Assembly (NCBI GenBank): GCA_030528645.1
Contig: JAUMYM010000003.1
Location: forward strand, 1-41,520
DNA: 41,520 bases
Source: Erysipelotrichaceae bacterium
GTDB taxonomy: Bacteria > Bacillota_I > Bacilli_A > Erysipelotrichales > Erysipelotrichaceae
Direction: 5' to 3'
Made by a program: the position numbers and the translations under genes
In this document: positions 13,133 to 13,918 of the stretch, piece after piece
How the letters are laid out: every line of letters begins with the position of its first letter
How positions within the stretch are numbered: position 1 is the first letter of the stretch
Notes under the pieces: model-generated
Databases searched by the model: none
Told to the model about the DNA's origin: nothing
What the model saw: only the letters and a program-made list of their open reading frames with translations

Positions 13133-13160
13133 TTGACAAAAATAAGGATTGCTATAAAAT
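13133..13160 (+). promoter_or_regulatory. Promoter of efp
   Basis: A perfect TTGACA (13133-13138), 16-base spacer and TAAAAT (13155-13160), 22 bases before the efp ATG, directly after the comGG stop. Confidence 0.7.
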
Positions 13161-13182: not shown

Positions 13183-13740
13183 ATGATAATTGTAAATGAT
13201 TTAAAACCCGGGACAACATTTGAACATGAAGGAAATATTTTTGTTGTTCTAGATATTGCACACAATAAGACAGCAATGCGTCAAATGATTGTTAAGGTAA
13301 AAGTGAGAAACTTAAGATCCGGAGTGATTAATGAATTGTCTTTTACAGGTGGAGACAAAGTTGATCAAGCAATGGTAGAAAAGAAAGAAATGCAATATTT
13401 ATATGATTCTGGAGATGCGTTAGTATTTATGGATACAAGTACATACGATCAAATAGAAATCAATAAAGATAAATTAGCATGGGAAATTAATTTCTTAAAA
13501 GAAAATTCAATGGTAAATATTTCGATGTATGAACAAGAAATCTTAGGTGTAATTTTACCAGATAAAGTGGAATTACAAGTAGTAGAATGTGAACCTGCTG
13601 TAAAAGGTGATACTGCAACAAGTGCTAGTAAAATGGCTAAATTGGAAACAGGATTAGAACTAAAAGTACCATTATTTATTAATCAAGATGAAATGATTTT
13701 AGTTTCAACAGCTGATGGTAAATATTCAAGTAGAGCATAA
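13183..13740 (+). CDS. efp: Translation elongation factor P
   Basis: A 185-residue EF-P with its three beta-barrel domains; it relieves ribosomes stalled at polyproline. The start has GGTGAAGAG upstream, and the family N terminus NDLKPGTTFEHEGNIFVVLD follows. The C-terminal domain is well kept (VECEPAVKGDTATSASK, ETGLELKVPLFI, ADGKYSSRA). The domain I loop that normally reads KPGKG, with the modified Lys at about position 32, here reads HNKTAMRQMIVKVKVRN. In an ungapped alignment Met32 takes the place of that Lys and Arg33 follows it. It may act unmodified or be modified differently. It has its own promoter and terminator. Confidence 0.93.
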   Translation: MIIVNDLKPGTTFEHEGNIFVVLDIAHNKTAMRQMIVKVKVRNLRSGVINELSFTGGDKVDQAMVEKKEMQYLYDSGDALVFMDTSTYDQIEINKDKLAWEINFLKENSMVNISMYEQEILGVILPDKVELQVVECEPAVKGDTATSASKMAKLETGLELKVPLFINQDEMILVSTADGKYSSRA

Positions 13741-13761
13741 AGGTCAATTTTGACCTTTTTT
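13739..13761 (+). terminator. Terminator of efp
   Basis: AAAGGTCAA (13739-13747) and TTGACCTTT (13750-13758) form a 9-bp stem with a two-base nominal loop, followed by more T residues. It begins in the stop codon. Confidence 0.85.
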
Positions 13762-13801
13762 GTTTACAATTTTATGAATATTGATTATAATAATTTACGA
13801 T

Positions 13802-13918
13802 AAAACTTTTAGGGCAGGGTGTAATTCCCGACCGGTGGTAAACTCCACGAGCCATGTTTATGGTTGAACTTGTGAAATTCAAGTAGCGACAGTAAAGTCT
13901 GGATGAAAGAAAGGTTTT
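13802..13918 (+). ncRNA. FMN riboswitch aptamer (RFN element)
   Basis: The core landmarks of the RFN element are present in order: AGGGCAGGGTGTAATTCCCG, ACCGGTGGTAAACTCCACGA, GCC, a variable hairpin, TGAAATTCAAG, GCGACAGTAAAGTCTGGATG and AAAGAAAGG. The outer P1 stem can form between AAAACTTTT (13802-13810) and AAAGGTTTT (13910-13918), with one mispair or bulge. It lies in the leader of the riboflavin transporter gene ribU and should turn it off when FMN is plentiful. Confidence 0.93.

Follow-up and report, generated by a model that had tools for sequence, protein, structure and literature searches.

Elongation factor P with a conserved methionine loop tip in Erysipelotrichaceae, and a separate lysine-type EF-P linked to candidate modification genes in relatives

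Known EF-P loops and the efp gene of the window

In elongation factor P (EF-P) of most bacteria, the loop carries a lysine that is chemically modified. In Bacillus subtilis, Lys32 bears 5-aminopentanol, and the EF-P of Corynebacterium glutamicum keeps its lysine in a stiff, proline-rich loop. Modification of EF-P is usually treated as needed, and bacteria in which the modified residue has changed are little studied. Witzky et al. (2018) report the distribution of the pathway genes over bacteria. In the survey of Volkwein et al. (2019; PMC6544042), methionine is reported at the tip of 0.77% of 1166 EF-Ps, never with a proline two residues before it, and is placed among the later tip residues; the same study reports that E. 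coli EF-P with a methionine tip (K34M) is inactive in vivo and that more than 50% of bacteria lack any known enzyme for EF-P modification. The sections of that paper considered here give no function for the Met-tip EF-Ps and mention no second, lysine-type copy; our literature search, mostly at the level of titles, returned none on Met-tip EF-P function or on an efp-SDR-ynbB unit. In B. subtilis, the K32A mutant is reported to fail on polyproline and to support growth without YfmR (PMC11381351). EfpL (YeiP), a relative of EF-P, is reported to work with a bare arginine tip, in a paper that names methionine among the natural tips (PMC11611912), and actinobacterial EF-P is cited as active without modification (PMC11611912, PMC11381351).

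The stretch of DNA analysed here (the window; 41,520 nucleotides of an Erysipelotrichaceae bacterium) encodes at 13183-13740 on the forward strand an EF-P of 185 aa, the sole EF-P found in the genome. The protein exceeds the Pfam cut-offs for all three EF-P domains and matches TIGR00038 efp over its full length (227.7 bits, cut-off 185.8). It contains HNKTAMRQMIVKVKVRNLRSG, beginning at residue 27, and its residues 1-184 align without gaps to Staphylococcus aureus EF-P in a phmmer comparison (6rk3, 6rji). As the first-pass annotation had read from the sequence, the canonical PGKG loop is missing, and residues 29-35 are KTAMRQM. This loop between strands 3 and 4 lies at 13267-13287 on the forward strand, as placed by the sequence, the AlphaFold2 model and the ungapped alignment to 6rk3; the stretch 13261-13330, previously given as the loop, contains it but extends into the next strand.

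The gap-free alignment pairs Met32 (13276-13278, forward strand) with the lysine of KPGKG, and both this alignment and the model bear out the earlier placement of Met32 at the site of the modified lysine. The AlphaFold2 model, built from a 36-row alignment with a mean pLDDT of 88.6, has a strand at residues 18-28, the loop at 29-35 and a strand at 36-43. Since the model places the loop at 29-35, Met32, the fourth of its seven residues, is the predicted loop tip. Lys29 (13267-13269, forward strand) had been raised as the possible true tip. This is ruled out: the model puts it at the base of the loop, and canonical EF-P has the same loop-base lysine, which all 36 alignment rows share, as do 190 of the 194 rows collected without using a loop pattern; canonical EF-Ps are included in both sets.

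Thus, the window EF-P resembles the canonical Firmicutes EF-Ps of S. aureus and B. subtilis in its three domains, its fold, the length of the loop between strands 3 and 4 (seven residues) and Lys29, but it lacks their Pro30, Gly31 and Lys32. A lysine tip with proline two residues before it is replaced by Met32 and Thr30, and the protein shares both the methionine tip and the absence of that proline with the Met-tip EF-Ps described by Volkwein et al. (PMC6544042). EarP-type EF-P likewise has no proline two before the tip, and its arginine tip occurs in close relatives of the clade; in the window protein, however, the tip is methionine and the arginine comes one residue later. The 20 best solved structures that Foldseek matched to the window model are EF-Ps or EfpL. 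The fold also matches C. glutamicum EF-P (6s8z, TM 0.92), from which the window loop differs in having neither a proline nor a lysine at the tip. Identity with EfpL/YeiP was rejected, with scores of 130.8 bits for the EfpL model (cut-off 216) and 111.3 bits for the YeiP model (cut-off 264); EfpL has an arginine tip on a longer loop, while the window EF-P has a methionine tip on seven residues.

A terminator-like hairpin with a T run lies directly 3' of efp (13739-13766, forward strand; 1 such site found against 0.2 expected). Together with a promoter-like site at 13133-13160 (forward strand), which is weak evidence at 7 such sites against 5.4 expected, it suggests that efp is on its own transcript. 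Note that an FMN riboswitch (Rfam RF00050, 107.3 bits) occupies 13801-13918 of the forward strand, between efp and the gene for an ECF transporter S-component-like protein.

Loop types and loop history in the order and class

Full-length EF-P loci were collected from 78 genomes of the order and their loops were read by alignment. An EF-P match was present in 74 of the 78 genomes, and the 106 loci comprise the window gene, one broken gene (L109), 33 copies with the canonical KPGKG and 71 that are non-canonical. The tips of these 71 are Arg (45), Met (23) or Gln (3), and all 71 lack both Pro30 and Lys32. A non-lysine EF-P is the only one in 41 of the 78 genomes, that of the host included. In the class sample, Met-tip EF-Ps likewise make up families f8 and f19, and the loops of families f5 and f16 are KTGRQQ, KTGRAQ, KSGRQQ, KSGRGQ or KQGRGQ; many genes of these two families need TGA read as Trp. 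Further loops in this sample read VKSARSAAF or VKSANSMAF, or are shortened. The first-pass annotation had proposed aligning the EF-Ps of relatives, and had missed what this comparison gives: on the aligned sequences, the Met-tip loop is a trait of the clade, and non-canonical loops run clade-wide.

The 194 rows fetched without a loop pattern give the tip counts. The tip is lysine in all 75 rows that have Pro30. Among the remaining 119 it is Arg in 69, Met in 43, Gln in 3, Asn in 2 and Lys in 2, and the loops of both these Lys rows are gapped. All 43 Met-tip rows keep Met35, and their residues 33-34 are RQ (21), RK (14), AK (6) or RG (2), so that a basic residue follows the tip in each of them. 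Arg33 counts are taken from these 43 rows only: the window residue, encoded at 13279-13281 on the forward strand, is Arg in 37 and Ala in 6. The named loci are the best 80 of 153 and were fetched by patterns that include NKTAMRQM, so their uniform loop is not independent evidence; the codon analysis likewise located loops by the letters NKTAM. Among those best 80 of 153 loci, named Met-tip carriers include Anaerorhabdus, Holdemania, Solobacterium and Dielma, and the nearest named relative is Erysipelotrichaceae bacterium OH741_COT-311, with an identical EF-P and 95.7% DNA identity over 6.6 kb.

Several loci depart further from these loop types. L102-L108, part of family f2, have a divergent loop, NKQGRLSGK, on a long branch with support of 100. 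Shortened or shifted loops, V-PTKRG, VLQNK-VAY and VLQNK-TAF, are found in L195, L198 and L200 (families f20 and f21) and are a further departure from the seven-residue loop. In addition, a 49-residue fragment with one stop (L143, G127:C8:14938-15084) matches the C-terminus of the window EF-P at 61% identity and stands apart from the intact efp of the same genome.

In support of a conserved loop, an alignment of 14 Met-tip EF-Ps, 63-83% identical to the window protein, shows no variation at N28, K29, T30, A31, M32, R33 or M35. A second genome of the host's genus encodes an identical protein. Since the loop is invariant in these 14 relatives and the congener protein is identical, it is neither a sequencing error nor a product of chance. 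Across 81 Met-tip genes, position 33 uses six Arg codons with the residue kept, and position 34 uses both Gln codons with the residue kept save for one Gly34. The codons vary and the residues hold, and by this comparison the loop is under purifying selection. A loop drifting in a decaying gene is therefore very improbable, as the first-pass annotation had already argued. Drift could draw on the tip residue differing between families, and on genome G235, in which the non-lysine efp is broken and a lysine-type copy is intact; against it stand the invariant loop with its synonymous variation and the retention of EF-P in 74 of the 78 genomes of the order. The broken gene of G235 (L109, G235:C1:2429500-2433000) is an efp of the NKQGR type, interrupted by a change of frame and by a TGA, in a genome of a single contig whose lysine-type copy, otherwise intact, lies elsewhere, and the break is either a real loss or a sequencing error. 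The window protein is thus a real and conserved variant of EF-P, and its methionine tip belongs to an already reported rare class.

The quick tree, of 166 rows, places 72 Met-tip rows in one clade with a single Gln and a single Arg row (SH-aLRT 96), and this clade lies nested within Arg-tip rows. In the careful tree, of 59 rows after the long or gapped rows L188, L195, L198, L200, L031 and L017 were removed by hand, one clade with support of 100/99 holds 17 Met, 13 Arg and 1 Gln row. Here the Met-tip rows form one side of a branch (support 68/81; in 72% of bootstrap trees). Three Arg-tip rows from other families sit with Lys-tip ones, and this tree does not settle whether Arg or Met came first within the order. 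The simplest path for the tip would be from Lys to Arg to Met, which is not proven. Since there are Arg rows among Lys rows and the order of Arg and Met is unsettled, the change from Lys to Arg may have occurred more than once.

Modification genes and the second, lysine-type EF-P

The host genome was searched with models of EpmA, EpmB, YmfI, YnbB (PF06838) and EarP. The genome has 1.38 Mb in 28 contigs and is 97.5% complete, so that about 2.5% of it may be missing. Neither EpmA nor YmfI, both of which the first-pass annotation had proposed to look for, reached its cut-off. The best EpmA score was 205 bits (cut-off 287), from an ORF that, at about 520 aa, is as long as a lysyl-tRNA synthetase, and the best YmfI score was 136.5 bits (cut-off 238). 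EpmB reached 18.6 bits (cut-off 369), and the YnbB family gave one partial match of 33.4 bits, which passes the Pfam cut-off of 24.2, against 243-526 bits for full members in the order. The host therefore has neither the EpmA and EpmB pair of the beta-lysyl type nor the YmfI and YnbB pair of the 5-aminopentanol type at these scores, and unlike hosts of canonical Firmicutes EF-P it has no full-score YnbB-like gene and no YmfI over the cut-off. The control genomes exceeded the cut-off in 2 of 14 cases for EpmA and 1 of 14 for EpmB, with E. coli among the positive controls, and the YmfI and YnbB controls were positive, B. subtilis among them; these positives are counts that do not name the single genomes over the cut-off. 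The EarP model had no match in the host, but its control matched in 0 of 14 genomes. The possibility of a second, canonical EF-P in this genome had also been raised, and none was found by the EFP_N model or by the whole-protein search in the 97.5% complete assembly.

The relatives differ in a respect absent from the first-pass annotation: a second, canonical KPGKG EF-P, distinct from the housekeeping efp, and linked candidate modification genes are present in 33 of the 78 genomes of the order. The canonical copies sampled in the careful tree, with two from families f17 and f20, form one branch (100/99, five rows), and the quick tree recovers the same lysine-type branch with support of 100 over 15 rows. 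Each of the 33 canonical copies is followed, after 8-42 bp and on the same strand, by a gene for a short-chain reductase (SDR). The YnbB-like gene is strong in all 33 genomes with a canonical copy (in one it is cut by a contig end) and occurs in 1 of the 45 without it, a co-occurrence counted over related genomes, for which Fisher's test is uncorrected for relatedness. The lone exception, G237, has a YnbB-like gene without any EF-P match. Over 20 wider neighbourhoods (18 of them from the order), the SDR cluster was found 20 times, the YnbB-like cluster 19 times and the PnuC-like cluster 15 times, family names that rest on two scanned SDR proteins, two YnbB-like proteins and one PnuC-like protein.

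These co-occurrences show that the candidate modification genes track the lysine-type copy and, as judged by gene position and content, are linked to it in the relatives. The clade history and this linkage are what is new here. From its position and co-occurrence, the reductase is a candidate for a role in EF-P modification. We do not call it YmfI, because in the one protein scored (from L293) the FabG model gave 198.8 bits, more than the YmfI model, which at 165.6 bits stayed below its cut-off of 238.

Because the candidate modification genes track the lysine copy, the Met-tip copy is most likely unmodified. The earlier suggestion that the factor works without modification probably holds, on this linkage and on the EpmA, EpmB and YmfI scores below the cut-offs. 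The alternative, that an unknown enzyme modifies the loop on Met32 or on another residue such as Arg33 or Lys29, could draw on the more than 50% of bacteria with no known EF-P modification enzyme (PMC6544042) and on an EarP search without a positive control. We consider it improbable: Arg33 is Ala in 6 of the 43 Met-tip rows, the tip swaps between Arg, Met and Gln in close relatives, and no enzyme of a modification type stood out in the 14 largest gene clusters around efp, inspected over 71 of 81 neighbourhoods. The other 10 (L210, L221, L224, L227, L228, L236, L256, L260, L261 and L265) were excluded because the ORF caller did not return efp, probably displaced by a longer overlapping ORF. 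The proposal that Arg33 is used as in rhamnosylated EF-P is not supported by the data: this residue lies one past the tip, and in those 6 Ala rows Lys34 follows.

How a methionine-tip EF-P may work

On balance, we think that the window EF-P is probably a housekeeping EF-P that works without loop modification, through Met32 and the adjacent basic residue. It belongs to an EF-P clade of the class in which Lys32 and Pro30 were lost together. The Met-tip protein would bind in the E site beside the P-site tRNA, like other EF-Ps, and would promote peptide bond formation with unmodified side chains. In the proposed contact model, Met32 would pack close to the CCA end, whose backbone would be contacted by Arg33 or, in relatives, by Lys34. 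The KTAMRQM loop would compensate as a whole, which we favour over a modification-independent job alone, and the factor would possibly be weaker than a modified EF-P on strong polyproline stalls. EfpL, with its bare arginine (PMC11611912), offers a precedent for the bare tip proposed here. Against it stand the inactive E. coli K34M and the failure of B. subtilis K32A on polyproline, by which a bare methionine may not rescue polyproline.

These two mutants also favour a different reading, in which the Met-tip EF-P has ceased to reach the peptidyl-transferase centre and gives no polyproline rescue. It would keep a modification-independent job, the recognition of P-site tRNA from the E site together with ABC-F ATPases, and strong rescue, where needed, would come from the lysine-type second copy and its linked genes. 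In support of this, K32A supports growth without YfmR (PMC11381351), the host genome encodes two ABC-F proteins, and Pro-Pro is scarce in the sampled part of that genome (13 seen, 27.0 expected). However, 41 of the 78 genomes live without a lysine copy, and the tip methionine and the next basic residue are conserved, which is unexpected for a tip without a role. The scarcity of Pro-Pro is also general. The simple expectation is fewer Pro-Pro motifs in genomes without the lysine copy, but in two sets of 20 stretches 74 motifs were seen against 110.6 expected where the copy is missing (ratio 0.67) and 61 against 109.2 expected where it is present (0.56), compared to ratios of 0.60 near efp in 30 Lys-tip loci of the class (10 of 16.7) and 1.00 in a 50-kb stretch of E. 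coli. The counts oppose the expectation and do not discriminate. We regard the loss of polyproline rescue as rather unlikely. The host must translate PPP, because PPPNVTG is encoded in one of its ORFs, which we take to be valyl-tRNA synthetase.

For the class branch made up of the Erysipelotrichaceae and two other families, we tentatively propose, as quite possible, an unmodified housekeeping EF-P whose Met tip and basic residue arose by way of Lys, Arg and Met. The lysine-type EF-P, with its own candidate modification genes (the tandem reductase and, usually nearby, the YnbB-like gene), would be a separate unit gained and lost together. If this is true, evolution has divided the work of EF-P between two genes, one for its basic functions and one for those that depend on modification. 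The relatives allow a natural comparison of genomes in which a housekeeping, non-lysine EF-P stands alone with genomes that add a lysine-type copy and candidate modification genes, so that it can be tested which EF-P functions depend on modification. The tandem pair of efp and reductase, with the YnbB-like gene, also offers a compact way into the 5-aminopentanol-type pathway, which is incompletely understood. In the neighbourhoods L292-L311, for example at L293:8390-12482, a PnuC-like membrane gene (15 of 20), the second efp, the SDR gene (20 of 20) and a YnbB-like Met_gamma_lyase gene (19 of 20) lie together, and this neighbourhood is also found in two genomes outside the order.
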